IMG/VR virus record: IMGVR_UViG_3300030104_001764
Location: 1 to 26,486 of that record
DNA: 26,486 nt
Strand: one strand, 5' to 3'
Source of the DNA: a virus
The translations under genes were made by a program, and so were the position numbers. Each line of letters starts with the position of its first letter. The first letter of the stretch is position 1. The notes beneath the pieces are model-generated. The model saw only the letters and a list, made by a program, of their open reading frames with translations. It was not told where the DNA came from and searched no databases. This document shows, piece after piece, positions 12,051 through 25,382 of this stretch.

Positions 12051-12095
12051 TATGCGATTTATGGGTTATTATAATATAGTTAACGACTATATCAA
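12051..12095 (-). promoter_or_regulatory. Promoter of the late (terminase-head) operon with operator-like sites
   Basis: Minus strand -35 TTGATA (12090-12095), 16-bp spacer and -10 TATAAT (12068-12073) give a start near 12061. An inverted repeat ATATAG/CTATAT spans the spacer. Two copies of the window's recurring element follow at and just after the start, TATGGG at 12060-12065 and TATGCGA at 12051-12057 (plus-strand reading). A host sigma-70-type RNA polymerase would use it. A repressor bound here could hold off late transcription. Confidence 0.65.
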
Positions 12096-12328
12096 ATTAT
12101 TTATAATTGTTTGTGAAAAACTTAGCCCTAGCTCACGCTGTCGCGACCTATGGCTCGCTGAATTTTTTTTAAGAATCCTATATTTTAAGCCGTTTTTTAG
12201 CCTCTATTGTCTAGGGTACCTTAACCGCTTTGGAGTCTATTTGCCCCGCTGACGTTTGCCGTTGCCCCACGAATCATTATTTATTTAGCGTTATTCCTTC
12301 ACGTTTTACAGCTGATAACGGGGCTTAA

Positions 12329-12412
12329 ATTACTGGGAAAATTACTGGGAAAATTACTGGGAAAATTACTGGGAAAATTACTGGGAAAATTACTGGGAAA
12401 ATTACTGGGAAA
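12329..12412. repeat. Seven tandem copies of a 12-bp unit (ATTACTGGGAAA)
   Basis: The unit is repeated seven times with no mismatch at exact 12-bp period, then runs into AATTAAAAAA. The complementary unit is TTTCCCAGTAAT. The array is not in frame with any gene. Exact iterons near terminase suggest a binding site for a replication initiator or for the small terminase, but a young slippage-type expansion would look the same. Confidence 0.95.
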
Positions 12413-12567
12413 AATTAAAAAATCCTGGTCGATTTCTAGATATTCCAGACTGGTTGCTGTTGCCCCGTAAATCTTTATATATTGATTCGGTGTTCATATG
12501 TTTTAAATCTTGGTTGGTCGGCCGTGGTCGGCTTGTTTAACTATTTAATACTAATTAGATAAGGCAA

Positions 12568-12594
12568 TAAAAAAGCCCCGCTTAAACGGGGCTT
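12568..12594 (-). terminator. Terminator at the end of the early block (AAGCCCCG family)
   Basis: A perfect 8-bp stem, 12573-12580 AAGCCCCG with 12587-12594 CGGGGCTT, loop CTTAAA, followed on the minus strand by six T. It lies 28 bp after the 37-residue ORF and is one of four terminators in the window with the same arms. Confidence 0.88.
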
Positions 12595-12621
12595 AAATCG
12601 GCGTTAAATGTTATTTAGTTT

Positions 12622-12735
12622 TTATATGTTCCCCGCAATTAAAAGAATAAAGAAAGCAAATAAAAACATAATTGGCATAAACAAAAGTTCACATATAAAG
12701 CAAAATACTTTCCTAATTTTTAAATAAGTTTTCAT
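12622..12735 (-). CDS. 37-residue single-TM microprotein
   Basis: An ATG at 12733-12735 overlaps the TAA of the 146-residue gene by one base (TAATG), and AAGG sits 8-9 bases upstream. The product is MKTYLKIRKVFCFICE followed by a continuous hydrophobic helix (LLFMPIMFLFAFFILLIAG) and a short end NI. It is then closed by an intrinsic terminator. The coupled start, single clean membrane helix and position before the terminator support a real gene. Function unknown; small inner-membrane phage proteins often act in takeover or superinfection exclusion. Confidence 0.6.
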   Translation of the reverse strand: MKTYLKIRKVFCFICELLFMPIMFLFAFFILLIAGNI

Positions 12736-13175
12736 TAGGCAACCTTATCCAATTTAACCAAGTCCATATAATCCAATTTATCAAAATCTAGAAATAAATC
12801 CGAGGCTAATTGAAATTGTAAAAAATCTTGTATTTGCTTTTGGTAATTCTCAACAAAAGCTTGAGCGTGAAAAATACTAGTTTTAATTCCTAGATAATCT
12901 TTAACTTTATACAAGCCCCGACTCTCATTCTCATTTATAAATTTATTATAAGCGGTAATAGAGTCAAACATATGTCTACAAGTAAAAAACTTTGCTGATA
13001 AGTTCGCCGTAAATTTTCCATAGTCTCGACCATAACAAAAATTGCGGTGGCCTTTTTCGTATCCAAGTTCTAATTTATAAATCTCGTCTCGGTGTTTAGT
13101 CCAAGTAATATTATTCATAAATTGAAAACTAACATACATTTTATTGATGGTTTTTATTTGTTTGTTATTAATCAT
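12735..13175 (-). CDS. Unknown early protein (146 residues)
   Basis: Lys/Phe/Tyr-rich soluble protein with NITWTKHRDEIYKLELGYEKG, a CYGRDYGKF turn and a helical C-terminus rich in Gln and Asp. No motif is recognised. It has a private transcription unit: terminator of the previous gene, promoter-like cassette (13204-13231), then the leader ATAACTTTAATTAATAGGAG ending about 10 bases before the ATG. Followed by a coupled membrane microprotein and a terminator. The AT-rich codon use matches its neighbours. Confidence 0.7.
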   Translation of the reverse strand: MINNKQIKTINKMYVSFQFMNNITWTKHRDEIYKLELGYEKGHRNFCYGRDYGKFTANLSAKFFTCRHMFDSITAYNKFINENESRGLYKVKDYLGIKTSIFHAQAFVENYQKQIQDFLQFQLASDLFLDFDKLDYMDLVKLDKVA

Positions 13176-13203
13176 TTTCTTAAATCTCCTATTAATTAAA
13201 GTT

Positions 13204-13231
13204 ATCCTATTTTATCGCATACTTTACCAAA
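13204..13231 (-). promoter_or_regulatory. Promoter-operator cassette, copy A
   Basis: On the minus strand TTTGGT (13226-13231), then AAAGTATGCGATAAAA, then TAGGAT (13204-13209): hexamers 16 bp apart with the element TATGCGATAAA in the spacer. The T-run of the terminator just upstream runs into the -35-like hexamer. The leader below is ATAACTTTAATTAATAGGAG, identical to that of copy B. The hexamers are weak matches to sigma-70, so an activator or a phage-specific factor is possible. Confidence 0.5.
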
Positions 13232-13263
13232 AAAGAAAAGCCCCGCAAAAAATACGGGGCTTT
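13231..13263 (-). terminator. Intrinsic terminator (AAGCCCCG family)
   Basis: A 9-bp stem AAAGCCCCG (13237-13245) with CGGGGCTTT (13255-13263), followed on the minus strand by CTTTTTT-type sequence. It ends the unit containing the 75- and 115-residue genes. Confidence 0.85.
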
Positions 13264-13297
13264 ATAAGGGTTTGAGGTTAAGCAGCTCTCAAGTTTT

Positions 13298-13525
13298 TTA
13301 GCACGTTTCAAGTTGTTCTATATCGGGGCGGTGCCGTTCTTCTAAATACTTACAAACTTTAAACCAAGTGTTTAGATTATCCCTGACGGAGTCAATATCG
13401 CAAACTACCCCGTCAAAGTTTTCATTATCGCAAGCTACTACAAAATTTGAATCTTCTTCAATATCTCCATAGCAATAAGTAGTTCCGCCGTCTTTACGAT
13501 TGTAAATATAATCAGCTTTTGTCAT
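13298..13525 (-). CDS. Unknown small early protein (75 residues)
   Basis: Acidic protein with YIYNRKDGGTTYCYGDIEED, two further cysteines (VVACDNENF, VVCDIDS) and a WFKVCKYLEE helix. Some of these cysteines could bind metal but the spacing fits no known finger. The ATG lies inside the end of the 115-residue gene (14-bp overlap), with GGGGG 8 bases upstream. It is second in a two-gene unit closed by the terminator at 13231-13263. No family recognised. Confidence 0.65.
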   Translation of the reverse strand: MTKADYIYNRKDGGTTYCYGDIEEDSNFVVACDNENFDGVVCDIDSVRDNLNTWFKVCKYLEERHRPDIEQLETC

Positions 13526-13859
13526 TTGTTAAGCCCCCGTTTAAAATGGTTTTTAATTCAGATAGTCTTTCACAATTAAACCCCGCATCTTCCTTATCCA
13601 TTTCTTTTGCTCCTATAACGTCTTCCCATTCATTTATTAAATCTTGTAAACAATAAATAAAATGGTTTTTGTCATTAAAGCTAGAATCTTTTTTTAAGTT
13701 TATTTGTATAATCGTTTTTTCCTTTTGTTCATACTCCGCCTCTATAATATAACCATTATTTTCTAGTATTTCCAAAGCGGTATTAATATCGTTTCCGACT
13801 AATACTTTGTTTTCGTCTGTATCGTCTGTATAGATTTTAAAACTTTTTATTTTAGTCAT
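13512..13859 (-). CDS. Unknown early protein (115 residues)
   Basis: Read from ATG 13857-13859, which has AGGAG 6 bases upstream; the codon directly before is GTG and is less well spaced. Residues 1-60 alternate strands (KIKSFKIYTDDTDENKVLVG, AEYEQKEKTIIQINLKK) and the rest is helical and acidic (LINEWEDVIGAKEMDKED). No catalytic motif. It is first in its unit behind promoter-operator copy B, with the same 20-bp leader as the 146-residue gene. Confidence 0.68.
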   Translation of the reverse strand: MTKIKSFKIYTDDTDENKVLVGNDINTALEILENNGYIIEAEYEQKEKTIIQINLKKDSSFNDKNHFIYCLQDLINEWEDVIGAKEMDKEDAGFNCERLSELKTILNGGLTNDKS

Positions 13860-13882
13860 CACTTTCTCCTATTAATTAAAGT

Positions 13883-13911
13883 TATATAGTTTATCGCATA
13901 TATTAACCAAA
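13883..13911 (-). promoter_or_regulatory. Promoter-operator cassette, copy B
   Basis: TTTGGT (13906-13911), a 17-bp spacer containing TATGCGATAAA and TATATA (13883-13888) on the minus strand, then the leader ATAACTTTAATTAATAGGAG. Same order and spacing as copies A and C. Confidence 0.55.
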
Positions 13912-13941
13912 AAGAAAAGCCCCGTAAAAAATACGGGGCTT
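13909..13941 (-). terminator. Intrinsic terminator (AAGCCCCG family)
   Basis: A 10-bp perfect stem AAGCCCCGTA (13917-13926) with TACGGGGCTT (13932-13941), loop AAAAA, followed on the minus strand by CTTTTTGG. It ends the unit of the 40- and 52-residue genes. Confidence 0.88.
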
Positions 13942-13963
13942 ATTCAAAGTTTTAAAAATTTTA

Positions 13964-14122
13964 TTAATTGCCGTTTTTGGCGTTTTCCTCTTTTTCAATA
14001 TCGGTTAGCCATTCATCAAAAGCGTTTTGTAAATCGTTCGGCATTTCATGTAATAAAATTTCCATTTTTGGCTTATCGTTCCATTCAGCCTTTATTACAG
14101 TTGATACTATTTTTTTATACAT
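13964..14122 (-). CDS. 52-residue acidic early protein
   Basis: The ATG at 14120-14122 overlaps the TAA of the 40-residue gene by one base (TAATG), so it is translated by coupling. The product MYKKIVSTVIKAEWNDKPKM continues with a helical FDEWLTDIEKEE tail. The ORF ends 23 bp before a terminator. No family is recognised. The two tiny ORFs form a complete small unit with its own promoter cassette and terminator, which supports both. Confidence 0.62.
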   Translation of the reverse strand: MYKKIVSTVIKAEWNDKPKMEILLHEMPNDLQNAFDEWLTDIEKEENAKNGN

Positions 14123-14244
14123 TATTCTATCTTCTCATATGATAAACAATTTTGTTCAATTAGTTCTTGTAGGTACTGTATTACATCTTCTTCATCTACT
14201 TCTTCTTTATTCTCAAATTCTAAAATTATCATTACTTTTTTCAT
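14122..14244 (-). CDS. 40-residue acidic early peptide
   Basis: ATG 14242-14244 is preceded by AATAGGAGATTAAAAT, a good ribosome site. The product starts MKKVMIILEFENKEEVDEED and goes on as an acidic helix with one cysteine, YLQELIEQNC. It is first behind promoter-operator copy C. The frame is closed by TAA that overlaps the next ATG. Function unknown. Confidence 0.6.
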   Translation of the reverse strand: MKKVMIILEFENKEEVDEEDVIQYLQELIEQNCLSYEKIE

Positions 14245-14283
14245 ATTTTAATCTCCTATTAAAATTATCCCGTCTAGCGGGCT

Positions 14284-14313
14284 TATGTATTTTATCGCAT
14301 ACTTTATACCAAA
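14284..14313 (-). promoter_or_regulatory. Promoter-operator cassette, copy C
   Basis: TTTGGT (14308-14313), an 18-bp spacer with GTATGCGATAAA and TACATA (14284-14289) on the minus strand. Below it a small hairpin CCCG/CGGG (14269-14281) lies in the leader before AATAGGAG. Order is the same as copies A and B. Confidence 0.52.
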
Positions 14314-14341
14314 AGAAAAGCCCCGCATTTCTACGGGGCTT
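14311..14341 (-). terminator. Intrinsic terminator of the DUF932-like gene (AAGCCCCG family)
   Basis: An 8-bp stem AAGCCCCG (14318-14325) with CGGGGCTT (14334-14341), followed on the minus strand by CTTTTGG. Its right flank continues into a ~25-bp near-duplicate of the flank of the terminator at 12568-12594. Confidence 0.83.
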
Positions 14342-14366
14342 AAATCGGCTTTAAATGTATAGAAAA

Positions 14367-15506
14367 TTATGAGGCCATAGCGACTCTATTCCAATCGGTT
14401 TTTTTCATGTTTAAAACTTGCCCGCCTAGTTTTTGCCAAAAGTCAACATCATCAGCTTTAGCAGTATTACCGACTCTAGTTACTGCATTAACAAAAGTTG
14501 CCCTGTTAACGGGCTTGTCATTTTCATAACCCGCTTGCCCAATAGTTTTTAACAATCCGTCTAATACGTTGCTAGTTTCTTTTTTAGATAAAGTTAAAAC
14601 TTTTCCTAAATTTTCTACTGCCTCGGTTGTTTCTACGTCTATCGTATCTTCTGACGCTAATTTCATTTTTTCTAAATTTTCATCAAAAGAATCTCTGGAC
14701 GCATAAGAGCTAACAATATCCCGCAGTTGTAATTTTAAACTGTGATTATCAGCCTCTTTAGTTTCATTGGTTAAAATATTCCAAGTGTCCCCGTCTCGAG
14801 CTGACGTTATATGAGATTTTCTTGTTATGTTTTGGTTCTGCATTCCATTAAGGCAAGCTAGAGTCCAATTAATTCCGAATGCTGAAATACTGCCCGCTCC
14901 CGTTTCAGAATTAGAAAGCCCGATTCCATGTGCCATAATGTCATTAACATTAGCTCCCGTTCCCGTTATGAGTTCGGATTTTAAACGTATGTACATTTTC
15001 TTTTGAGTAATGGCGCAATTAACAATCTTCCAACAAGCGTCCGATTCCATTAATTGAGGCAATGCAGATTCTAATAAATCAGAATTATCAAAAGTTTTAA
15101 ATTTATCAGATAAAAAAGCTCTAGCCGTACCGCTTGGGTTCATACCTTGGTTTAAATCATCATAAGTTCTAACCATTCGCTTATTGTTTTCTTTTTGCCA
15201 AATAGCATTAGTCAATGAATCATATTCTCTAGGATATTCAGATTGTAAACGCCTAGCCGTTCTAACATCTAACCCGTTCTTTTGGGCTATTTGGTCAAAA
15301 CATAAATCATTAACTTTTAAAAAGCGTGTCGGCTCCCCGCCGTTACCCTCTATAACAATTTCACTTTGTGTGTGTGGAACGTCCTGAATAGTTCTAAATT
15401 GAAGTTCTTTAGTTGGTGCTATAAAATCTTGTTTCCTAGCATTGGTATCTTTAATGCGGATTAAAAGCTTTTCTAAAGTGTTATTTTCGTTTTCTATATT
15501 ATGCAT
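14367..15506 (-). CDS. DUF932-like phage/plasmid protein
   Basis: A 379-residue soluble protein. It shows the run of motifs I associate with DUF932/TIGR03299: ARAFLSDKFKTFDNSDLLES in the first half, then a SNSETGAGSISAFG block followed by LACLNGM, then the ITRKSHI motif and a helical C-terminus with SKKETSNVLDGLL. Family members are common on phages and plasmids and have no settled function; links to DNA metabolism or takeover are only suggested. Start ATG 15504-15506 follows AATAGGAGATAAAT. It is alone in its unit between the promoter at 15558-15585 and the terminator at 14311-14341. Confidence 0.72.
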   Translation of the reverse strand: MHNIENENNTLEKLLIRIKDTNARKQDFIAPTKELQFRTIQDVPHTQSEIVIEGNGGEPTRFLKVNDLCFDQIAQKNGLDVRTARRLQSEYPREYDSLTNAIWQKENNKRMVRTYDDLNQGMNPSGTARAFLSDKFKTFDNSDLLESALPQLMESDACWKIVNCAITQKKMYIRLKSELITGTGANVNDIMAHGIGLSNSETGAGSISAFGINWTLACLNGMQNQNITRKSHITSARDGDTWNILTNETKEADNHSLKLQLRDIVSSYASRDSFDENLEKMKLASEDTIDVETTEAVENLGKVLTLSKKETSNVLDGLLKTIGQAGYENDKPVNRATFVNAVTRVGNTAKADDVDFWQKLGGQVLNMKKTDWNRVAMAS

Positions 15507-15530
15507 ATTTATCTCCTATTTTTAAAATGC

Positions 15531-15555
15531 AAAAAGCGGGCTTAATTACCCGCTT
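15531..15555 (-). terminator. Intrinsic terminator overlapping the next transcription start
   Basis: A 7-bp stem AAGCGGG (15534-15540) with CCCGCTT (15549-15555), then TTTTTGC on the minus strand. A promoter lies directly upstream with its predicted start inside the right-hand arm, so only readthrough RNA from upstream would form the whole hairpin. Confidence 0.75.
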
Positions 15556-15557
15556 AA

Positions 15558-15585
15558 ATAGTATACGATTTTTCTTATATGTAAA
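15558..15585 (-). promoter_or_regulatory. Promoter of the DUF932-like gene
   Basis: Minus strand TTTACA (15580-15585), a 16-bp spacer and TACTAT (15558-15563); start predicted near 15551. A degenerate copy of the recurring element (TATACGA reading, 15562-15568) touches the -10. The promoter lies between the stop of the 52-residue ORF and the terminator hairpin. Confidence 0.55.
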
Positions 15586-15589
15586 GTTT

Positions 15590-15748
15590 TTAGTTATTTA
15601 CTATTGGTTTAAATATTAGAACGCCATTTTTTAATCTGCTGACCCATCCTACGCTTATCCATTTATCTTTATAGGTTTTCATTTTTAAATGATTTTCTAA
15701 AATATTAACTTCCCTATAAATAACTTTTTGTATTTCATCATTTAACAT
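15590..15748 (-). CDS. 52-residue early protein
   Basis: ATG 15746-15748 lies inside the last codons of the Gp88-like gene (7-bp overlap), with GGGAG 9 bases upstream. The product MLNDEIQKVIYREVNILENH continues with a basic WISVGWVSRLKNGVLIFKP tail that looks like a small beta unit. It ends just before the promoter of the DUF932-like gene. No family recognised. Confidence 0.6.
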   Translation of the reverse strand: MLNDEIQKVIYREVNILENHLKMKTYKDKWISVGWVSRLKNGVLIFKPIVNN

Positions 15749-16440
15749 TTTCCAAAATCTCCCGCTATGTGATGTCTTAATACAGTTCCAAAAGGTAGTT
15801 CTTGAGTAAATTTTAATAACTGTATTTCGTCCCGCTCGGTATCAGCTCCGTTAACTGTTGCCTCCCAATGTAATTTAACATTGCCTGCCGTTGCATAACA
15901 ACCGCCGTTTTCTGTTTCACTACCCGCTTTTTTCTTATACGTCCCATGGTCGGTAAATCCAATAGCAAAATTTCTATCAATACGACTACATAATGGTTTT
16001 CCATTTCCGCAGTCCCTACAATTAGAATTGTTATATTCAGCTGGGCATCTAACAATTTTAAAATCATTTAGCGTTTCTGATTTACCATTAGTTTTCCAGA
16101 ATGTCTCTTTAACATTTATAACTACGGGTACGAATGAATGTAAAAGCATATCCGCAATGTTTTTTGCTGAATAGTTTATAGCCGTTTTACCTTTTCTTAA
16201 CTTATGTTTCCAAAAGCTAGGATTAAAATGTGAGTAAGTAAAACTAACGCCGCCTTTTGGAACGGAATCAGATACTGCATCAAGATAGCTATAATCTATT
16301 TCTGTGGCACCCGCTGAAGTATCAGGTTTTAAATTACAAGTTTTAGGGCAAGTTGCAAATTTATCTTGGCCTCCCGCTCTATAAGTTACTGCACAATAAG
16401 TTGTTTTTTTTGCAGTAGAATTTTTGACTAATTTAATCAT
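15742..16440 (-). CDS. Gp88-like cysteine-rich protein
   Basis: A 232-residue protein with nine cysteines: C16, C31 and C35 (CPKTC), C132, C141, C144, C151 (CPAEYNNSNCRDCG...LC), C181 (GGCYATAG) and C232. With VSFTYSHF, IGFTDHG, LHWEA and LRHHIAGDF these are the conserved blocks of the phage Gp88/DUF7227-type family, whose function is not established; the cysteines suggest an Fe-S or zinc site. Compared with the order I recall for other phages, GGCYA..RHHIAGDF lies after the CPAEY block instead of before it. Start ATG overlaps the upstream TGA (ATGA). Confidence 0.65.
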   Translation of the reverse strand: MIKLVKNSTAKKTTYCAVTYRAGGQDKFATCPKTCNLKPDTSAGATEIDYSYLDAVSDSVPKGGVSFTYSHFNPSFWKHKLRKGKTAINYSAKNIADMLLHSFVPVVINVKETFWKTNGKSETLNDFKIVRCPAEYNNSNCRDCGNGKPLCSRIDRNFAIGFTDHGTYKKKAGSETENGGCYATAGNVKLHWEATVNGADTERDEIQLLKFTQELPFGTVLRHHIAGDFGKC

Positions 16441-16766
16441 TTATCAGCTCCCTTTACTTTTTTAGCCGTTGCATCATATTCGGCCTCGGTTACATAAGAA
16501 TAAGAGGCTAGAAATTCTTCTTTTGAAATTTGAAAAAAATCCCTCATTTTTTCCCAATCGGTCGTAAAGTCTATCGCTTTTGAATTTCTTGAATAACCAA
16601 TTACCAAAAAATCTATATCTTCAAAATGTTCTATTTCATCTTTAGAAATATAATTCGCAAGTGAGCTATGGGTTTTTCCTCCGAACCAAGCCGTTCCGTC
16701 TTTAGTTTCCATAGGTATCCAATTATTTTTTTTAAGTTCTTTTATTTGTTTATCAGATAAAAACAT
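16437..16766 (-). CDS. Early protein, paralogue A of the W-F-G / IGY family
   Basis: A 109-residue protein. It begins FLSDKQIKELKKNNW and contains AWFGG and FLVIGYSRN, then an acidic helical extension FFQISKEEFLASY. The same pattern occurs in the 74-residue product at 18177-18401, so the two are paralogues within one genome; this copy has ~40 extra residues at the C-terminus. ATG 16764-16766 follows ATAGGAGAAATAAA. The gene is first in its unit and its TGA overlaps the next ATG. Function unknown. Confidence 0.68.
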   Translation of the reverse strand: MFLSDKQIKELKKNNWIPMETKDGTAWFGGKTHSSLANYISKDEIEHFEDIDFLVIGYSRNSKAIDFTTDWEKMRDFFQISKEEFLASYSYVTEAEYDATAKKVKGADK

Positions 16767-16779
16767 TTTATTTCTCCTA

Positions 16780-16810
16780 TATATGTGATTTATCCCATAC
16801 TTGTACTAAA
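16780..16810 (-). promoter_or_regulatory. Promoter-operator cassette, copy D
   Basis: TTTAGT (16805-16810), then GTATGGGATAAATCACATATA on the minus strand, followed by ATAGGAG. This copy has TATGGGA instead of TATGCGA. The -10 position is less certain (CACATA or CATATA, spacer 17-19). Confidence 0.45.
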
Positions 16811-16837
16811 AAGAAAAGGCCGTGTCAATCACGGCCT
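16808..16837 (-). terminator. Intrinsic terminator
   Basis: An 8-bp perfect stem AGGCCGTG (16817-16824) with CACGGCCT (16830-16837), loop TCAAT, followed on the minus strand by TTTTCTTTTT. It ends the long unit that includes 16843-19107. Confidence 0.87.
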
Positions 16838-16842
16838 ATTTG

Positions 16843-16938
16843 TTATCGTTTTCGCCCCCGTCTTATAGGTTTATTTTTAAGATGTTTTTCATAATCTGAC
16901 CCGTATAAAAGTTTAGCTAATAAATGAAATAAAAACAT
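16843..16938 (-). CDS. 31-residue basic microprotein
   Basis: ATG 16936-16938 overlaps the TAA of the previous gene by one base (TAATG) and AATAGGAG lies 9 bases upstream. The product is MFLFHLLAKLLYGSDYEKHL followed by a very basic end (NKPIRRGRKR). It is amphipathic at the front and ends 6 bp before a terminator. The clear ribosome site, coupling and terminator support translation; the short length keeps this tentative. Confidence 0.5.
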   Translation of the reverse strand: MFLFHLLAKLLYGSDYEKHLKNKPIRRGRKR

Positions 16939-17330
16939 TATGCAATTCTCCTATTCTCGGCTTTGGCCGTTACATTTATGACAATTACATTTTCTTGTAA
17001 ATCATTATCTAAAATTATTCTTTTATAATTAAAAGCTATTAAATCATTTATTTGGGCTTTTTTCTTTATCCCTGAAATAGATAATCTTCTATCGCCTCTA
17101 TTTACAGTTTTGTAAAATGAAATAGTACAAAGCGTATCATCTTCATAATAGGCCAATAACTTATGCTTTTCGCCATTTACCATTTTATCAAAATCAATAC
17201 CAAATAGTTTGGCAAATCTCCTGATACTTGTATTAGCATCTATTATCGCCTTGTTTAACATTGTGTTGGTTAGCCTGAGCTGTCCGAAGTCAGGGCTTAA
17301 AGTTTTTAAAATTTTATCTTCTTTATTCAT
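16938..17330 (-). CDS. Unknown early protein (130 residues)
   Basis: A basic, helical N-terminus (MNKEDKILKTLSPDFGQLRL, then IRRFAKLFGIDFDKM) is followed by a beta-rich half with LLAYYEDDTLCTISFYK and a VIVINVTAKAE end. No motif known to me. Its ATG overlaps the TGA of the gene before it (ATGA) with GGAGG 6 bases upstream, and its TAA overlaps the next ATG. It is part of a tightly packed unit with a single terminator at 16808-16837. Confidence 0.65.
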   Translation of the reverse strand: MNKEDKILKTLSPDFGQLRLTNTMLNKAIIDANTSIRRFAKLFGIDFDKMVNGEKHKLLAYYEDDTLCTISFYKTVNRGDRRLSISGIKKKAQINDLIAFNYKRIILDNDLQENVIVINVTAKAENRRIA

Positions 17331-18520: not shown

Positions 18521-18806
18521 TCTCGGCCTCCACATACTTTGAAAGGTCATAATCACAAACATCCGCAAGACTTTTTGGACATTGAAAACGAGTGAACAAA
18601 AGTTTGGCATCTTGTAAAATGCCTCGCTCTTTTCTTCTGGCCTCAGTTGTACTCAGCTCTCCGTCTTCATAAATGCTTTCAGGAGCTAACCCACATACTA
18701 TGTCTCGCCAACATTCATAAGCCTCCGCTTTAGTTTTAGGAAAAGCACCCCTAACGTAGTTCCATCTTGGGTCATCGTTAGGAAATATAATTTTAACTCT
18801 GTTCAT
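18504..18806 (-). CDS. Unknown early protein (100 residues)
   Basis: Read from ATG 18804-18806 with GGGAG 7-8 bases upstream; the frame has earlier ATGs without a site. The product begins MNRVKIIFPNDDPRWNYVRG, has CWRDIVCGLAPE and RRKERGILQDAKLLFTRFQC, and ends acidic. No motif recognised. It overlaps the preceding and following genes. Confidence 0.62.
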   Translation of the reverse strand: MNRVKIIFPNDDPRWNYVRGAFPKTKAEAYECWRDIVCGLAPESIYEDGELSTTEARRKERGILQDAKLLFTRFQCPKSLADVCDYDLSKYVEAENERSN

Positions 18807-19107
18807 ATTTTTTCTCCCTTTGGTGCATATCTGTATCTTCATCAAAAAAAGCCCCCATATAAGTTTTTTTCTTTAACTCTTCAAAGCATCTTTTTGTAAT
18901 TCGAGCAAGAGTACCACTTTGATAGGTCATACAATCATTCCAATAAACACCCTCTTTATGAGGGTCTTCATTAAGGTCTATGCCATACCAATCTTTGGTA
19001 ATTTCTTCATGTCTTTGATAAGCATCTTTTTCAGTAGCAATCAATATTGATTGGCTACATTCAAATTCTCCATGATGCTCTTCAACAGTCGCATAATAAT
19101 ATTTCAT
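18793..19107 (-). CDS. Unknown early protein (104 residues)
   Basis: First gene of a long unit. ATG 19105-19107 with GGAGG 6-7 bases upstream. The product starts MKYYYATVEEHHGEFECSQS (a strand with alternating aromatics, then the surface) and has ATEKDAYQRHEEITKDWYG, plus a CMTYQSGTLARITKRCFEEL segment. It resembles small single-domain phage proteins of unknown function. The leader contains one reversed TATGSGA element at 19147-19153. No family is named. Confidence 0.63.
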   Translation of the reverse strand: MKYYYATVEEHHGEFECSQSILIATEKDAYQRHEEITKDWYGIDLNEDPHKEGVYWNDCMTYQSGTLARITKRCFEELKKKTYMGAFFDEDTDMHQREKKYEQS

Positions 19108-19159
19108 ATCTAGCCTCCAAGCTATTTGTTTAAATTAAAATAACGATATGCGATTTTTT

Positions 19160-20098: not shown

Positions 20099-20146
20099 AA
20101 AACTTTTTCGCCCTTAGTAAGGCCAAAATTGATCTAATATTGTAAA

Positions 20147-20246
20147 GTTACATTTTTGAAATCAAATATGTAACCAAATATGTAACCATAGAATCCTTAT
20201 GTACTAACGATTACAGAAGGAAGTTACATAAGTTACACCAGTTACA
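20147..20246. repeat. GTTACA repeat cluster upstream of terS
   Basis: GTTACA occurs at 20147-20152, 20223-20228, 20232-20237 and 20241-20246, and its complement TGTAAC at 20169-20174 and 20181-20186. The last three are spaced exactly 9 bp, the two reversed copies 12 bp. Together they form an inverted arrangement around a ~40-bp centre. They lie between the terminator of the 151-residue gene and terS. A protein-binding array (packaging site or origin) is inferred. Confidence 0.7.
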
Positions 20247-20304
20247 CCTATATTTAACAAAAAATATTTTTTTTATTTTCAGCTCTATATATAAAGAAGA
20301 TTAA

Positions 20305-20335: not shown

Positions 20336-20346
20336 CGTGAGCCGTG

Positions 20347-20802
20347 TTAGGCAGATAGTTTTTCAAATACAGTTTTAGGATGGATATAATCCACTATAGC
20401 TCCCACTAGAACCATATGAGATTTATTACGTCCCATGTATTGGCTGGCTTCTTTACTAGCCTCCTGAAGTCCGAACTTATAAATTAAATCCCAGACTATA
20501 GCTTCGTTAGACACGGCCTTCAGGCTTTTGACCTTTTTGCCTTGAACATAAATAGTGCTTTTAGGACTACTAAAATTACTTTTATGAACTCTTACGAAAT
20601 CTTCGATATAACTCATTGGGAAATTACCTTTTCCATCGAAGTTTTTACTAGAAGTATAATAAGAAGGAGCATTTAAGCTGTATGGATCATTTAAAGTATC
20701 GTAAATTTCATTTTTCGATAATTTACCCAAGAAAGTTTTTACTTTTCTTGCCATGATTTTATCAAACTTATTTGCTTTATTTTCGAGTGTATTTTTTTTC
20801 AT
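20347..20802 (-). CDS. Unknown protein with an elaborate promoter (151 residues)
   Basis: A basic protein: a helical Lys-rich N-terminus (MKKNTLENKANKFDKIMARK), the aromatic patch PSYYTSSKNFDGKG, FPMSYIEDFVRVHKSNFSSPK, a strand TIYVQGKKVKSLKAV and a helical C-terminus ending AIVDYIHPKTVFEKLSA. No known fold recognised; the basic character would suit nucleic-acid binding. AGGAG is 7-8 bases before the ATG. It is alone between two tandem promoters with a palindromic operator and its own terminator, so it is separately controlled, as expected of a regulator or early switch gene. Confidence 0.68.
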   Translation of the reverse strand: MKKNTLENKANKFDKIMARKVKTFLGKLSKNEIYDTLNDPYSLNAPSYYTSSKNFDGKGNFPMSYIEDFVRVHKSNFSSPKSTIYVQGKKVKSLKAVSNEAIVWDLIYKFGLQEASKEASQYMGRNKSHMVLVGAIVDYIHPKTVFEKLSA

Positions 20803-20835
20803 TAATTTTCTCCTATTAAATAATGAAAGATTAAC

Positions 20836-20919
20836 ATTACAAAACTAATCACCAACTATGTCAAACAGATATGGGATTTCTCCCATACTTAATAGTATCA
20901 AATTACAAGATAAAGTCAA
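20836..20919 (-). promoter_or_regulatory. Two tandem promoters with a palindromic operator between them
   Basis: P1: TTGACT (20914-20919), 16 bp, TACTAT (20892-20897). P2: TTGACA (20859-20864), 17 bp, TGTAAT (20836-20841). Between them the perfect palindrome TATGGGA-TTTC-TCCCATA (20870-20887) covers the P1 start and abuts the P2 -35. It is the two-sided version of the element found singly elsewhere. Confidence 0.7.
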
Positions 20920-20949
20920 GTATTAAAATTATTCAATAAAATCAAAGAC

Positions 20950-21600
20950 TTATTTAGACGATTCTTTTTTTGTTTTCCAAAAATATTCGTTAGTATCTCC
21001 GAGTCGGGTCTGATTCCCATTCTCAACTTGGTACTCGATTGTACTAACTTTGAAGTCTGGCCGTAAAGGTTTATCAGGCGTGAGACTATTATCATAAACT
21101 CTCATCCGATTGTTTGGATAAACACAAAACTGTCCATTATCCAGCTGAAGCAGATTAAAAGATTTATGTTCGTCAGGTGTTTCAGCTGTACTATAATCTA
21201 TGGCATTAACATCGGCGTGATAATTATCTAGGGTTGCGATATAAACACCTTTTTGTATACCAAAATCTCTGGTTAGCACCTCATAATCCATTGAACCGAT
21301 GAATTGCTTATGAATAGCAGTGATACCATAATCCATACAATTCCAGAACTGCAAATTATTAAGAGGTAGGTCTGGATTGGGTATTTCAGGTCTAGATACA
21401 AACGCGCTAATAGGCAACTTGTCAAACAAAGCGCCATATTGAGGCAAATAAGTCTCAAAATAAAATGCTCTTCCAGGTATAGATTTACATGAGACCCAGA
21501 CCCCATCGACAAACTCGCCAAATCCATCTTCTAAATCCCTTAAATATTCTTTTCTAACATAAACTTTTTGAGCGGGTAGATTACAAATCAACTCACTCAT
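20950..21600 (-). CDS. Conserved phage protein of unknown function (216 residues)
   Basis: A soluble mixed alpha/beta protein starting MSELICNLPAQKVYVRKEYL, with many aromatic residues (GRAFYFETYLPQYGALFDKL, FWNCMDYGITAIHKQFIGSMD) and a C-terminal YQVENGNQTRLG segment. No catalytic signature is obvious. Similar proteins with this start occur in marine phages by my recollection. The ATG overlaps the TGA of the zinc-ribbon gene (ATGA), with GAGGT 6 bases upstream. It is the last gene of the methyltransferase unit; no terminator follows, so the unit may read into the next promoter region. Confidence 0.65.
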   Translation of the reverse strand: MSELICNLPAQKVYVRKEYLRDLEDGFGEFVDGVWVSCKSIPGRAFYFETYLPQYGALFDKLPISAFVSRPEIPNPDLPLNNLQFWNCMDYGITAIHKQFIGSMDYEVLTRDFGIQKGVYIATLDNYHADVNAIDYSTAETPDEHKSFNLLQLDNGQFCVYPNNRMRVYDNSLTPDKPLRPDFKVSTIEYQVENGNQTRLGDTNEYFWKTKKESSK

Positions 21601-21881
21601 ATAATTACCTCACTAAGCGTTGTTTCGTGAGGCGCGGCATTAGATACACGACTAACGCGCCCATACTCAATTTCATTAACAGCTCTTGGATCATCTTCAA
21701 ACCACATTTCATCGGGAGCTGGGGTTGTTGGATTTCTTTGCATTTCTTTAAAGATATCTCTAACGGATGGGTTAAGTTTTTGCACACAATCAGGACAAGA
21801 CATGGGCCTTGTTCTGATATGCTTTGTATTTTTTAATCTAACACCACAATCTTTGCAATGATCTACACTATTTTTTGGCAT
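21597..21881 (-). CDS. Zinc-ribbon protein
   Basis: A 94-residue protein with two CxxC knuckles, C9/C12 (HCKDCG) and C29/C32 (SCPDC), that form a classic zinc ribbon in the first 35 residues. The rest is acidic and proline-containing (NPTTPAPDEMWFEDDPRA). The ATG follows the stop of the previous gene with no gap (TAA then ATG), and GAGG lies 8 bases upstream. The finger suggests nucleic-acid or protein binding; the partner is unknown. Confidence 0.7.
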   Translation of the reverse strand: MPKNSVDHCKDCGVRLKNTKHIRTRPMSCPDCVQKLNPSVRDIFKEMQRNPTTPAPDEMWFEDDPRAVNEIEYGRVSRVSNAAPHETTLSEVII

Positions 21882-22055
21882 TTAGTAACCTCGTTTAATA
21901 ACAGTTAGACAATTTGTTAACAATGCGGCCATTTTTGCATTATCGGCTTTTTTTAATTTGGATACTTCCTCATTAACAAGGCCTTCTATTTCTAAAATAG
22001 CCTCTGCCCATAGTGGCATTTCATTAATATTAATCCAAGTTTTTTCTTTGCTCAT
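21882..22055 (-). CDS. 57-residue helical protein
   Basis: ATG 22053-22055 with AAAGGAG 6-7 bases upstream, inside the end of the HTH gene (26-bp overlap). The product MSKEKTWININEMPLWAEAI continues as an amphipathic helix with NEEVSKLKKADNAKMAALL and ends TVIKRGY. It is translated between two recognisable DNA-binding proteins and stops directly before the zinc-ribbon gene. No family recognised. Confidence 0.62.
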   Translation of the reverse strand: MSKEKTWININEMPLWAEAILEIEGLVNEEVSKLKKADNAKMAALLTNCLTVIKRGY

Positions 22056-22476
22056 TTTTTGCTCCTTTTTCTATTTCTTTAGCTTTTGTAAAGAGTTGAT
22101 GGACATATTGACGGCTTACATTTAATTTTTTAGCAATTTCATTAAATGTACGCCCTGATTCTCTCATTTTAATTATTTTTTTTCTTCTTTTTAATTGGTT
22201 TTTTCTTTTTTCCGATAATTGTTGTGGCGTACTTTCAACAATTCCATGTTTTTTTCCAATTCCATGTCTTTTTCTATAACCAAAAGCTCTACAAGCATCT
22301 GAACAGTACTTTCTGCCTTTTCCTATTTTTGCAGTAAACACCGTTCTTTTTTTTATTTCGTGACAAGAAGGGCATTTAAAGTCATATGTATAATTTTTTT
22401 TTATATTCCTAATACAGAGCTCAAGTCTTTCAATCTTTAGGTCAGCAGATTTTTTTGCTTCTTCATAAGATTTCAT
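22030..22476 (-). CDS. Zinc-finger plus helix-turn-helix DNA-binding protein
   Basis: A 148-residue basic protein with two parts. Residues 35-62 carry CPSC and YCSDAC (C35, C38, C58, C62), a zinc knuckle. Residues ~102-132 form a helix-turn-helix, MRESGRTFNEIAKKLNVSRQ then YVHQLFTKAK, of the kind seen in sigma-like and resolvase-type DNA-binding domains. A highly basic linker (KRRKKIIK) lies between. It is likely a transcription or DNA-processing regulator acting on phage DNA. AAGGAG 8-9 bases upstream lies in the end of the methyltransferase gene, and its ATG follows that stop at once. Confidence 0.75.
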   Translation of the reverse strand: MKSYEEAKKSADLKIERLELCIRNIKKNYTYDFKCPSCHEIKKRTVFTAKIGKGRKYCSDACRAFGYRKRHGIGKKHGIVESTPQQLSEKRKNQLKRRKKIIKMRESGRTFNEIAKKLNVSRQYVHQLFTKAKEIEKGAKNEQRKNLD

Positions 22477-23211
22477 TTAAATATCTCCTTCAGTTTTTCC
22501 AAAAAGGTCGGTTTGTGGGGCGTGACCCGTGGGTCGAGAATGTGGAGTTTCCACACGTTTTTCATAGTCGGCATTTTTTTCAAAGATTCGCCGTGATGGC
22601 GGGATCCAGACCAGCTGTGTTTGGTCATTGTCTTGATTTGTTCGCCATATGAACCAAGCGTAGCTTGTAGCTGTCGAAGCAGTTGCAGACAGACGGCCTT
22701 TAACGATTGGCACTCGTTCACAAAACTGCGCGATAATCGTTGGCGGGTTTGGTTTAAATAATCTTTCATAACGTCCTATTCCTTCCATGAATTGAGTTCG
22801 TGCGAAGATTGCCACCAGCTTTCGTGTCATGGGCAAAGCTTTACGGACAAATTCTTCAGCTAAATTAAAAGGTGGATTGGTAATGATCCAGTCAAACGTG
22901 TTATAAGAAGTGTAGGCACCGACTACCTGACTATAATCCATGGCAAGAAAGTCCTGAATACGATCCTGACCATAATCAGCTATGTCACATGATTCGACTT
23001 TATCAAAATATTCTTGAAGGACCTTAACCATGTGACCACCACCGCAAGCTGGTTCAAGTACACGATCACTATAATGGATCATACCCATAGGCTTTATAAT
23101 AGAATGAAACAGAGCTCGCGTGGCCCATGGCGGAGTAGGAAAGTAATCCAGACTATCTTTTTTTTCATGCCGTTGAGACATAACAGCATGAGTTGTGTTT
23201 TGCGCGTTCAT
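22477..23211 (-). CDS. DNA adenine/cytosine-N4 methyltransferase
   Basis: A 244-residue S-adenosylmethionine-dependent enzyme. It begins with a DYFPTPPWAT segment (22-31) often seen before phage methylases. It has motif I, LEPACGGGHM (52-61), and motif IV, TNPPF (111-115), with the order I then IV of the amino-methyltransferases acting on adenine N6 (or cytosine N4). The C-terminal part from ~180 is basic and may read the DNA site. Without a linked nuclease here it is likely an orphan methylase that protects or marks phage DNA. ATG overlaps the upstream TGA (ATGA); the ribosome site is weak, consistent with coupling. Confidence 0.85.
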   Translation of the reverse strand: MNAQNTTHAVMSQRHEKKDSLDYFPTPPWATRALFHSIIKPMGMIHYSDRVLEPACGGGHMVKVLQEYFDKVESCDIADYGQDRIQDFLAMDYSQVVGAYTSYNTFDWIITNPPFNLAEEFVRKALPMTRKLVAIFARTQFMEGIGRYERLFKPNPPTIIAQFCERVPIVKGRLSATASTATSYAWFIWRTNQDNDQTQLVWIPPSRRIFEKNADYEKRVETPHSRPTGHAPQTDLFGKTEGDI

Positions 23212-23420
23212 TGTAATCTTTGAACTTGTATTACATCTACTTGTTCCCCTTGTTCATAAGATTCTCGTTCCATTTCCATCAAACCAATAGTTCGTTCTAA
23301 TTGAGTTAACTCTTCTCTCCACATAACTTCTGTTGGTTCGAGCTCTATTTGTCTTTTTTTAGCAGTAGCCATCTTTTTTAAAAAATTTATGCTTAAATCT
23401 AATTCGTTATTTAATATCAT
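23208..23420 (-). CDS. Small coiled-coil protein (70 residues)
   Basis: Almost wholly alpha-helical and charged (LSINFLKKMATAKKRQIELE then EELTQLERTIGLMEMERESY), likely a coiled coil, with a short polar end QVDVIQVQRLQ. The ATG overlaps the TGA of the upstream SAYYRRG gene and its own TGA overlaps the methyltransferase ATG, so it links the two. No family recognised. Confidence 0.62.
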   Translation of the reverse strand: MILNNELDLSINFLKKMATAKKRQIELEPTEVMWREELTQLERTIGLMEMERESYEQGEQVDVIQVQRLQ

Positions 23421-23590
23421 TTGATACTCCTTAATTTTAAATGCAACGTCATTCCAAAATCAAAGCCTCGTCTATAATAAGCCGAAGACTTTTTGTCCTC
23501 ATTCATTTGTTGGTAAAGGACAGCATCCTCAGCTCCTTCTTCAAAATGCATGAGATAGCCGCGCCTCTTTTTTTCTGTGGGATTTAACAT
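23417..23590 (-). CDS. SAYYRRG-family small protein (intact copy)
   Basis: A 57-residue protein from ATG 23588-23590 with GGAGGT 3-4 bases upstream. It begins MLNPTEKKRRGYLMHFEEGA and ends with SAYYRRGFDFGMTLHLKL. The motif SAYYRRG(Y/F)(D/E)FG recurs in short proteins of marine phages by my recollection, and a second, frameshifted copy lies at 17626-17798. It is the first gene behind the structured leader and promoter at 23697-23725. Function unknown. Confidence 0.72.
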   Translation of the reverse strand: MLNPTEKKRRGYLMHFEEGAEDAVLYQQMNEDKKSSAYYRRGFDFGMTLHLKLRSIK

Positions 23591-23690
23591 ATAACCTCCA
23601 AGTCTTTGTTAATGTTGGTGTGCAGATTGTTTTGAGGTATCGTCACTAAGGTCGATGTTGCAATTTACCACAGTGCTAAACAATCCGCAC
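23591..23690 (-). ncRNA. Structured 5' leader (candidate cis-regulatory RNA)
   Basis: The leader of the methyltransferase operon starts near 23690 and could fold into a 13-bp stem. The first arm is 23690-23678 (GUGCGGAUUGUUU) and the second 23632-23620 (AAACAAUCUGCAC). All Watson-Crick except one G-U wobble that is allowed in the transcribed strand only. Inside the closed 45-nt region GGU/ACC and AUCG/CGAU can stack with a 10-nt bulge. The ribosome site GGAGGT lies ~20 nt beyond the second arm. It fits no riboswitch I can name. Confidence 0.5.
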
Positions 23691-23696
23691 ATATAA

Positions 23697-23725
23697 TAGA
23701 TAAGATTTATCGCATACTATGTCAA
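23697..23725 (-). promoter_or_regulatory. Promoter of the methyltransferase operon
   Basis: TTGACA (23720-23725), a 17-bp spacer holding TATGCGATAAA (TCGCATA at 23710-23716 on the plus strand) and TATCTA (23697-23702) on the minus strand. The predicted start near 23690 coincides with the first base of the leader stem. Confidence 0.62.
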
Positions 23726-23742
23726 GTACAAAAGTTTTATAC

Positions 23743-23778
23743 AAAAAAACCCGCTAGGGATAGCCTAACGGGTTTTTT
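23743..23778 (-). terminator. Terminator with T-runs on both strands
   Basis: The stem CCCG-C-TAGG (23750-23758) with CCTA-A-CGGG (23764-23772), flanked by seven A on the left and six T on the right, can work in both directions. It ends the 63-residue gene unit on the minus strand. Confidence 0.85.
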
Positions 23779-23786
23779 AGTTTTGC

Positions 23787-23812
23787 ACTTAATGAATAGG
23801 AGTACATTAAGT
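23787..23812. repeat. 8-bp perfect inverted repeat around an AGGAG loop
   Basis: ACTTAATG (23787-23794) and CATTAAGT (23805-23812) flank AATAGGAGTA. It is in the gap between the 63-residue gene and its terminator. On the plus strand the loop resembles a ribosome site, but no usable start follows. Confidence 0.6.
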
Positions 23813-23864
23813 CTTTGTCATAGTGTCTCTCACAATTAAGTTGTACTAAATTAAATTAATATAG

Positions 23865-24056
23865 TCAATCCCATATATTAATATATTTATATTTTTTTAA
23901 TTTTGCCCGTAAATTTATGTCACTGCAATTTTTACAAAAGAATTTTATTGCGGTTCGACTATCGCCCATAAACAAAAGCTGATCTTTGTAATAAAGATAG
24001 GACTTAGCGCTGTTGCCCGTGTCCAACACATAGTCATCACATTTGTAAACCGTCAT
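23865..24056 (-). CDS. Unknown small protein (63 residues)
   Basis: A Lys/Tyr-rich product, MTVYKCDDYVLDTGNSAKSY, with an apparent strand-turn-strand, then FMGDSRTAIKFFCKNCSD (a CxxC) and a basic end. Cys6 plus the CKNC pair could bind a metal. The ATG overlaps the TGA of the membrane protein gene (ATGA) without a visible ribosome site, so it depends on coupling. No family recognised. Confidence 0.58.
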   Translation of the reverse strand: MTVYKCDDYVLDTGNSAKSYLYYKDQLLFMGDSRTAIKFFCKNCSDINLRAKLKKYKYINIWD

Positions 24057-24814
24057 TTATTTTTAACGGCATTATTTAAAGAATCAATAACATCATCAAT
24101 GTTTGGTTCTTTTCCCCATGGATTGTAAACACACTTATATTGTTTCGGGCACCACGATTCGATCATCAGCTCATATGTTTGATTATTGCCTATATAGATA
24201 CAAGCCATCATGCCTGTTCTTGATTTAACTCTTTTTTTTAAACGGCACGTTGTGTATTTTTTCTTTTTAATTTTGCCTTGGTTTTCTAGTTGTTTCTTTG
24301 TATAGGTTTTTGGAGTGTATTTGTAAGTGTCTGCTTTTGCTTCTTTAATCCAAATACTAGCAACCAGTGCTATAAAACCACCGATAATGGCAATTAAAAA
24401 AAACCAAGCAATAGCTTCGCCTATCTGCCTTCTCATTTGTTGTTGTTTATATATGGTTTGCTGTCTTTGTTTTCTTATTTGACCTTCCATCTGCAATAAT
24501 TCATCGTAAGCTTTAGGACCATGAGTTAAATTCAAAAACATCTTGAGTTCGTATCGTTGTTCCTCAAGTTTCTTTTTAGCAGCATAAGCAGATAGAGCTG
24601 CTTCTTCTATAGATCCAGCCTTAAACAATTTGCCAAACAGGGGAGGATTCTTGGCTTGCTTTTCTGCATTATCTACATCTGAAACAGCTCCCATCCAACG
24701 GCCGATGTCCCCAGACATTTGTTCAATATCGCGACCGACCGCAAATCCTTGTTTAATAGCGGAGAAAGCTTTGGACGCGACTCCCATCGCGAGTGAAATA
24801 GTAACTGGGTCCAT
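24053..24814 (-). CDS. Phage membrane-associated protein with one TM helix (253 residues)
   Basis: The first ~60 residues (MDPVTISLAMGVASKAFSAI and on) are amphipathic. Residues 80-135 form a Gln/Arg-rich coiled coil, one transmembrane helix lies at about 137-159 (WFFLIAIIGGFIALVASIWI), and the rest is basic with four cysteines (TCRLKK, MMACIYIG, SWCPKQYKCVYN) likely to pair outside the cell. Proteins with this MDP(I/V)TI start and layout are common in marine phages but have no known role. An in-frame TAA two codons before the ATG fixes the start. No ribosome site is seen; TATAAT lies 5 bases before the ATG. Confidence 0.65.
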   Translation of the reverse strand: MDPVTISLAMGVASKAFSAIKQGFAVGRDIEQMSGDIGRWMGAVSDVDNAEKQAKNPPLFGKLFKAGSIEEAALSAYAAKKKLEEQRYELKMFLNLTHGPKAYDELLQMEGQIRKQRQQTIYKQQQMRRQIGEAIAWFFLIAIIGGFIALVASIWIKEAKADTYKYTPKTYTKKQLENQGKIKKKKYTTCRLKKRVKSRTGMMACIYIGNNQTYELMIESWCPKQYKCVYNPWGKEPNIDDVIDSLNNAVKNK

Positions 24815-24909
24815 ATCTTATTATAACACGTTTTTAAAAAAAAATGAAAGTCAAGACTATTAAAACAAAAAATAATTTTATATGATGTTTAATTCAGAGG
24901 AGAAAATAC
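24815..24909. promoter_or_regulatory. Divergent promoter region
   Basis: This 95-bp gap lies between the only divergent genes. Leftward: TATAAT (24820-24825) 5 bases before the ATG, with a weak -35 (TTCATT). Rightward: TATGAT at 24881-24886 with no good -35, then AGAGGAG about 7 bases before ATG 24910. The middle is a long A/T tract. Promoters are tentative. Confidence 0.4.
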
Positions 24910-25134
24910 ATGTCAAATTTACCAAACAGAAGACCGTGTGTAACCACGGACGTAGGAGAAGGTTTAGCTGTAACCGTCTCATTTCATCCAGAAACAAATA
25001 CACCAATAGAAGTTTTTTTATCAGGGAGAGGTAAGAAAGCATCTGATGGGCCTATGACGGATGCTTTATACAATATGGGCGTTGAAGCGTCTAAATTAAT
25101 GCAAAATAAAGACAATCAACCCGCAACGGAATGA
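24910..25134 (+). CDS. TSCPD-like small protein, the only rightward gene
   Basis: A 74-residue protein with a good ribosome site, AGAGGAGAAAATAC, before ATG 24910. It begins MSNLPNRRPCVTTDVGEGLA and has PIEVFLSGRGKKASDGPMTD followed by YNMGVEASKLMQ. The strand-GRGK-helix pattern resembles the TSCPD domain, found at the end of B12-dependent ribonucleotide reductases and as small phage proteins. It may therefore act with nucleotide metabolism, but it could be an independent protein. It runs against the rest of the genome and its end overlaps the RHH gene tail to tail by 19 bp. No terminator is seen. Confidence 0.68.
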   Translation: MSNLPNRRPCVTTDVGEGLAVTVSFHPETNTPIEVFLSGRGKKASDGPMTDALYNMGVEASKLMQNKDNQPATE

Positions 25135-25325
25135 TCTTTGGCTTTTCTCAAGGTCATTTCGGCGTCTACGAGCTCTTTTACTCTCTTTTGTTCCTCGGAA
25201 ACATATTGAGAGTAGATGAACCGTAGTTGTCCACCCAAAGTTCTGCCTTCTTTAGCCGCAATTTTCTTAATTTCTAAATAAACATCTTTAGGAACTAGAA
25301 TGCTTTTCCATTTTTCTGTATCCAT
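25116..25325 (-). CDS. Ribbon-helix-helix-like DNA-binding protein
   Basis: A 69-residue basic protein. KWKSILVPKDVYLEIKKIAA (5-24) looks like the strand and first helix of a ribbon-helix-helix (Arc/CopG type) and EGRTLGGQLRFIYSQYV (26-42) the second helix. The tail is charged. Such proteins bind palindromic DNA as dimers and repress promoters, often their own. Its promoter region holds two copies of the TATGSGA element, and one lies between the ribosome site and the ATG, so self-repression is likely. A candidate for the factor reading that element throughout the window. AAGGAT lies 11 bases upstream. Confidence 0.7.
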   Translation of the reverse strand: MDTEKWKSILVPKDVYLEIKKIAAKEGRTLGGQLRFIYSQYVSEEQKRVKELVDAEMTLRKAKDHSVAG

Positions 25326-25326
25326 A

Positions 25327-25382
25327 TCGCATAAATCCTTCTCTTTTACGCGATTATATGCGAGATTATATAATTACGTCAA
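25327..25382 (-). promoter_or_regulatory. Promoter of the RHH gene with two TATGSGA elements
   Basis: Minus strand TTGACG (25377-25382), an 18-bp spacer and TATAAT (25353-25358). The plus-strand elements TATGCGA (25357-25363) over the -10 and TCGCATA (25327-25333) next to the ATG lie ~30 bp apart in opposite orientation. The -35 is just past the polymerase stop codon. Confidence 0.68.

Follow-up and report, generated by a model that had tools for sequence, protein, structure and literature searches.

In the archaeal virus SSV1, the small viral ribbon-helix-helix (RHH) protein F55 binds as a dimer to tandem repeats of the ATAGATAG type, which overlap the start sites of its own promoter and several others in the virus, and it represses them with self-control (PMC5569661). 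The omega protein (ParB) of plasmid pSM19035 is an RHH dimer that recognizes asymmetric 7-bp heptads in direct and inverted orientation, in arrays that cover its own promoter and several others (PMC9499535). In cluster A mycobacteriophages, one repressor has more than 20 sites genome-wide, placed in promoters and short intergenic gaps (PMC9283540). Here, we analyzed the heptad TATGSGA and its extended form TATGSGATAA in a 26,486-base IMG/VR virus record (IMGVR_UViG_3300030104_001764), a fragment that we call the window, meaning the whole stretch of DNA that was analyzed. An original prediction, made from the letters of the window, had proposed that this element is an operator through which one regulator controls the whole phage. 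That proposal was supported by the density of the sites, their presence in relatives, the contrast with relatives lacking RHH, the spacing, the position at the -10 box, the regulator's own promoter, and the uniqueness of the RHH family. Enrichment, conservation, spacing, position, co-occurrence, and the array at the RHH promoter were computed directly. We consider it likely that TATGSGA(TAA) serves as an operator half-site for the phage's own 69-amino-acid RHH protein, which would repress host sigma70 promoters and control its own synthesis.

Distribution and spacing of the heptad

With gene calls made by script for the split between intergenic and coding DNA, the window contained 19 copies of TATGSGA against 5.85 expected, a total reached by 0 of 100 shuffles. 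Thirteen copies lay between genes (0.86 expected) and 6 within genes (5.0 expected), while TATGSGATAA occurred 5 times with about 0 expected. The motif was therefore not equally frequent in coding sequence: its coding density was at chance and its intergenic density far above. In a motif-free ranking of k-mers, TATGCGA was among the top intergenic-enriched 7-mers, beside terminator, Shine-Dalgarno, and tandem-repeat words. The sequence stated in the original prediction was found at every coordinate it listed, and its 11-mer, TATGCGATAAA, was exact at 13211-13221, 13890-13900, 14291-14301, and 23706-23716, all on the minus strand. It had placed the element almost only in promoter gaps, with one copy inside a gene; the intergenic enrichment stood, but we found six genic copies (at 1101, 5612, 7129, 17457, 18165, and 19089). 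As these are at chance level, the conclusion on intergenic enrichment holds despite the miscount. The list had also overlooked the intergenic copies at 4732 and 23869. Its description of the element as present at most promoters was fair, although not all carried it: of the 17 gaps in the window that precede minus-strand genes and measure at least 45 bp, 10 had the exact core and 12 a relaxed form.

Minus-strand genes make up nearly the whole window, with the end of the DNA polymerase A gene at the right, then small early genes, the terminase small and large subunit genes, and the portal and capsid genes at the left. Its terminase was 54 to 63% identical to those of HTVC027P, HTVC023P, 023Pt_psg01, and DSL-LC04 and 84 to 98% identical to those of many uncultured contigs, and sequence comparison places the phage group with the HTVC023P-type marine podoviruses (HTVC023P and DSL-LC04 were covered over 50 kb each). 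The motif was not absent from related phages, and its enrichment recurred in RHH-bearing uncultured relatives. Intergenic TATGSGA counts were 9 versus 0.56 expected in G001, 11 versus 0.94 in G010, 13 versus 1.6 in G012, and 11 versus 1.1 in G013, compared with 0 versus 0.58 in the reference HTVC027P and 1 versus 1.4 in DSL-LC04. Across 80 RHH-encoding contigs, which were retrieved by the RHH protein, there were 292 intergenic sites in 91.5 kb and 11 of the reversed motif, whereas 80 contigs related to HTVC027P, in which no RHH match was found, had 49 sites and 43 of the reversed motif, i.e., no enrichment.

When the surroundings of 119 non-redundant intergenic sites were examined, a second heptad, defined as TAT[GA][CGA]GA with at most one mismatch, occurred at preferred offsets: direct at -10 (30 cases), +10 (24), and +20 (6) and inverted at +11 (18) and +21 (8), against a median of 1 over all offsets. 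Heptads thus recur once per helical turn on one face of the DNA, with TATGSGA as the strongest unit of the array. This accounts for the 11-mer of the original prediction, TATGSGATAA being one 10-bp unit. Repeated half-sites on one DNA face, as in RHH arrays of the F55 and omega type, were therefore found in the form of the direct 10-bp and inverted 11-bp peaks. Partners in the window comprised a perfect inverted pair at 20870-20887, near-perfect inverted pairs at 16782-16799 and 23710, and direct pairs at 13211-13221 and 25357-25363. We rejected a pure palindrome model because there is only one perfect palindrome in the window and direct 10-bp pairs outnumber inverted ones.

Intergenic DNA is AT-rich and other repeated words were enriched too, as would be expected if an AT-rich word were simply favored between genes by chance or composition. 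The dinucleotide shuffles, the reversed-motif control, the sister group lacking RHH, the chance-level coding density, and the sharp spacing peaks refute this explanation, to which we assign a negligible probability.

The RHH protein and its own promoter

The proposed repressor and the elements around its start are as follows.

25116-25325, minus strand: gene for the 69-amino-acid RHH protein, proposed repressor, immediately downstream of DNA polymerase A
25353-25382, minus strand: predicted RHH gene promoter, TTGACG-18-TATAAT, which fits the consensus at 11 of 12 bases and shares the best score on the transcribed strand of the scanned region
25347-25373, minus strand: predicted autoregulatory operator array over the -10 box, with TATATAA (weak) at 25367-25373, TATGCGA at 25357-25363, and TACGCGA at 25347-25353 (plus-strand letters), in tandem with a 10-bp period
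25327-25333, minus strand: extra TATGCGA at the RHH start codon, kept in the close relatives L131, L155, L165, and L291

The order of DNA polymerase A and RHH genes was shared by the window and nine relatives, and RHH genes occur in at least 137 IMG/VR stretches. All 14 members compared matched Pfam RHH_5 with E values up to 0.01, the window member scoring 24.3 bits, under the curated cutoff of 26. AlphaFold2, run on a single chain with a 14-row alignment, predicted a strand at residues 3 to 12 and helices at 13 to 26 and 30 to 68, with a pLDDT of 86.9. Foldseek returned mainly RHH proteins (Arc, CopG, AmrZ, and AtaR) at high probability, with weak E values, none below 0.001. By sequence match and predicted fold, the protein belongs to the ribbon-helix-helix (MetJ/Arc/CopG) superfamily. 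A sequence search of the PDB gave marginal RHH matches together with spurious streptavidin matches, and a search of INPHARED gave no convincing phage homologue, though near records may be left out. Strand residues W6, K7, S8, L10, V11, and P12 (WKSxLVP) were invariant in the 14 members down to 50% identity, and this is the predicted DNA-contacting strand.

Among the gene families of G001, G010, or G014, RHH was the only one present in all ten motif-bearing genomes and in 0 of the 4 reference phages. The choice of the RHH product as the best candidate ligand is thus strongly supported by the uniqueness of the family, the arrays at its own promoter, and the invariant strand. We also considered the protein encoded at 22030-22476, which has cysteine pairs (a possible zinc site) and a helix-turn-helix (HTH) like that of sigma70 region 4; it was rejected as the ligand because it occurs in the window only, with no homologue in the 21 other genomes compared.

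From the 19 non-redundant RHH promoter loci collected, the divergent G009 was left out, and direct 10-bp heptad pairs were present in 18 of the remaining 18, against an expectation of 0.39 and a maximum of 2 in 100 shuffles. Since the relaxed heptad used for this count was chosen after some of these promoters had been read, we also ran a seed search with no assumed motif. At spacing 10 alone, it again gave 18 of 18, and among its best seeds were TCGTATA, TCTCATA, and TCCTATA, which are the same heptad on the opposite strand. Three contigs from marine bacterial metagenome-assembled genomes (L291, L292, and L293) also carried 10-bp heptad arrays at the RHH promoter. Sites over the regulator's own promoter, as in the F55 and omega systems, were therefore general save in G009.

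The RHH gene bears sites just as a mere target would, and 023Pt_psg01 has sites with no RHH detected; the ligand of the element could accordingly be a transcription factor of the host or a second, undetected regulator of the phage, the RHH gene being one target of several. We regard this as improbable, given that RHH is the sole family to follow the motif across genomes, that a 10- to 11-bp heptad spacing is the footprint expected of RHH arrays, and that the HTH protein of the window, as a second regulator, has no homologue elsewhere in the comparison.

Sites relative to promoters

When the best sigma70-like promoter was taken per gap, 64% of element centers fell at -21 to +8 of the -10 center, compared with 23% of random positions, and 15% fell at -22 to -200, compared with 45%, an upstream depletion. 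Both orientations were used (83 versus 68). The median promoter score was 8.3 in gaps with the element and 6.5 in gaps without it, and the top two promoters of the scanned region, each with 11 of 12 consensus bases, were those of the RHH gene and the terminase, both of which bear the element. Sites also lay over the core promoters of several other genes, as in F55- and omega-type systems. This placement over the -10 box or start is the geometry of a repressor. The original prediction had put the element in the spacer between -35 and -10 boxes in four cases; this is clear at 23710 (TTGACA-3 nt-TATGCGA), but elsewhere the element is more often on the -10 box or start site. It had also stated that early, late, and regulator promoters all carry the element, whereas late (terminase) control is kept in part of the group only: of 21 non-redundant terminase promoters from relatives, 11 have the heptad.

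RHH proteins such as AmrZ and AvtR are capable of both activation and repression, and the -35 boxes of several operator-bearing promoters are weak. The RHH protein might then be an activator, or activate at low and repress at high concentrations, as reviewed for AvtR (PMC5569661). Sites were scarce upstream of -35, however, and were concentrated on the spacer, -10 box, and start, where polymerase is normally blocked, so that we find activation doubtful, slightly more so than binding by a host factor or second regulator.

We searched for the RNA_pol family (PF00940) in the near-complete relatives G001, G007, G010, and G014, the window itself being a fragment, and found no match, with T7 as the positive control. 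Integrase (PF00589) was found in none of 11 relatives and serine recombinase/resolvase (PF00239) in none of 4. We therefore rejected a role as the immunity repressor of a temperate phage, because neither enzyme was found in the relatives searched. The lack of all three in these relatives makes use of the host RNA polymerase and a lytic lifestyle likely for the phage group. These searches also bear on the proposal that the element is a promoter for a single-subunit RNA polymerase or sigma factor of the phage. TGCGATAAACTATA does resemble a T7 promoter, and a constant TATGCGATAAA stands just 5' of the Shine-Dalgarno sequence and ATG in several cassettes; nevertheless, sites occur in both orientations at variable distances from the gene, heptads come as tandem and inverted pairs, and the four near-complete relatives have no such polymerase. 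We therefore consider a phage-specific promoter very unlikely.

Under the preferred reading, repression by RHH, we infer binding, cooperativity, repressive sign, and timing as follows. RHH dimers would occupy a strong heptad together with, by cooperative binding, a weaker one at a distance of one helical turn, which is 10 bp for direct and 11 bp for inverted pairs. Dimers on adjacent heptads along one DNA face would cover the -10 box or start and thereby block the host sigma70 RNA polymerase. Targets would be most early and accessory gene promoters, the terminase promoter in the subgroup of the window, and the RHH gene itself, the block of which would constitute negative feedback. More tentatively, a single, tiny RHH protein might serve as the master switch of a whole virulent tailed phage. 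It would keep most early and accessory promoters closed, together with late ones in some lineages, and release them when its concentration drops, and it might in addition confer a non-integrating carrier state or superinfection immunity; we think this possible, though rather unlikely.

Several observations weigh against RHH repression. The 6 intergenic sites of 023Pt_psg01 (0.86 expected) come with no detectable RHH. In G009, the RHH protein is divergent (38% identical), motif enrichment is weak, and the RHH promoter has no array. G002 has the element without a detected RHH gene; the group's polA and terS are absent from it as well, so that G002 is probably mosaic or incomplete. The co-occurrence of RHH and motif is confounded by descent, the RHH-bearing and RHH-less phages being two lineages. 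Finally, sigma70-like matches were not enriched in the scanned region (48 versus 56 in shuffles) when scored with the E. coli consensus, and individual promoter calls thus stay predictions. As an observation on G002 itself (68,001 bases; L094 to L097), it combines the group's structural genes with an unrelated polymerase and 26 minus-strand genes and is mosaic or chimeric.

The other sites in the window are listed from right to left.

23869-23875, minus strand: intergenic TATGGGA, possible weak site
23697-23725, minus strand: predicted promoter TTGACA-17-TATCTA, spacer holding TATGCGATAAA (23706-23716), like the spacer placement in G001, TTGACA-3 nt-TATGCGATAAATCT
20892-20919 and 20836-20864: promoter-like pairs flanking the palindrome below, TTGACT-16-TACTAT and TTGACA-17-TGTAAT, respectively
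20870-20887, no strand assigned: predicted palindromic operator TATGGGA-TTTC-TCCCATA, inverted +11, a peak spacing among relatives
19147-19153, plus strand: predicted operator heptad preceding gene 18793-19107 and paired with TTCTATA at inverted +11, kept in G001 and G004
16782-16799, minus strand: predicted operator TATGGGA-TAAA-TCACATA, just 3' of TTGACA-17-TACAAG, with the same layout in G007 and a related one in G001
14291-14301, minus strand: predicted operator TATGCGATAAA, flanked by terminator 14318-14341 and gene 14122-14244, kept in G002 and G005
13890-13900, minus strand: predicted operator TATGCGATAAA, flanked by terminator 13917-13941 and gene 13512-13862; G001 and G004 share this terminator-operator-leader sequence
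13211-13221, minus strand: predicted operator TATGCGATAAA, flanked by terminator 13237-13263 and gene 12735-13175, its direct partner AATAGGA lying at +10; kept in G004, there with AATGGGA at +10
12051-12095, minus strand: predicted late promoter, that of the terminase, TTGATA-16-TATAAT (12068-12095), which fits the consensus at 11 of 12 bases; TATGCGA (12051-12057) falls where transcription is expected to begin
4732-4738, plus strand: intergenic TATGCGA between two small structural-region genes, with no partner heptad, may be chance

At the 16782-16799 operator, the TTGACA -35 box lies within the terminator hairpin of the preceding gene (16817-16837), so that terminator and next promoter are fused, and G001 and G007 have equivalents. 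The leader of gene 23417-23590 (23600-23695) contains a long-range inverted repeat, GTGCGGATTGTTT ... AAACAATCTGCAC, and could fold as a structured 5' RNA. A perfect 12-bp tandem array of AAATTACTGGGA, with 7.2 copies, occupies 12327-12413, where it separates the terminase promoter from the early genes, and may represent origin or packaging iterons, and clustered TGTAAC/GTTACA repeats lie at 20130-20240, immediately upstream of the terminase small subunit gene.

In terminase promoters of the relatives with the parS-like site described next (e.g., L042, L048, L051, and L059), another conserved element, cTTGTTAACTG or cTTGTTCACTG followed by GCATATT, takes the place of the heptad; GTTAACT is also present in the terminase promoter of the window. 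An exact match to TGTTNCACGTGNAACA occurs in L038, L042, L043, L048, L051, L055, L059, L067, and about 40 further loci, mostly about 80 to 130 bp upstream of the terminase large subunit gene and in two copies in some loci. TGTTNCACGTGNAACA is the bacterial chromosomal parS consensus (the ParB site), and this parS-like site may recruit host ParB in the relatives that have it. Those relatives often have a terminase promoter without the heptad; TGTTNCACGTGNAACA is not in the window.

Comparison with described systems

No direct description of a global RHH repressor in a phage emerged from a literature search, and keyword searches of two papers on HTVC023P-type marine podoviruses returned no mention of phage promoters or operators. 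Our finding supplies a concrete operator, regulator, and regulon that are testable, and it shows how about ten promoters could be coordinated in a phage that apparently depends on the RNA polymerase of its host, with neither a polymerase of its own nor lysogeny genes. With the heptad and the 10-bp rule, regulons become predictable in uncultured phages.

The nearest functional parallel is F55 of SSV1, likewise a viral RHH protein with repeats at its own and other promoters. However, F55 acts on archaeal promoters in a lysogenic virus, whereas the present virus is a tailed bacteriophage in which no integrase was found, and it has another heptad and sites at about ten promoters. SvtR of SIRV1 and AvtR of a lipothrixvirus are also viral RHH regulators of their own and other viral genes, and AvtR was among the sequence and fold matches, but they belong to archaeal viruses and have few known sites and other operator sequences. 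The nearest operator parallel is omega, with RHH-type heptad arrays in both orientations. Its WATCACW heptads are contiguous with a 7-bp period, while those described here are TATGSGA with a 10- to 11-bp period, which sets the element outside the omega family; in addition, no partition ATPase turned up here, although no search was aimed at one. P22 Arc is a phage RHH repressor of similar size that appeared among the sequence and fold matches, with marginal sequence similarity. Arc acts at one early promoter region, in contrast to the genome-wide sites seen here.

As a regulon, the element is closest to the stoperators of cluster A mycobacteriophages. The cluster A repressor is an HTH-type monomer that recognizes asymmetric 13-mers oriented with transcription, unlike the RHH protein and paired heptads of the present group, in which no lysogeny genes were found. 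A stoperator model was rejected on orientation, the two directions being used 83 and 68 times. Thus, this system differs from those known in its heptad, its 10-bp period, its occurrence in a tailed phage where no lysogeny genes were detected, and its presence at most promoters.

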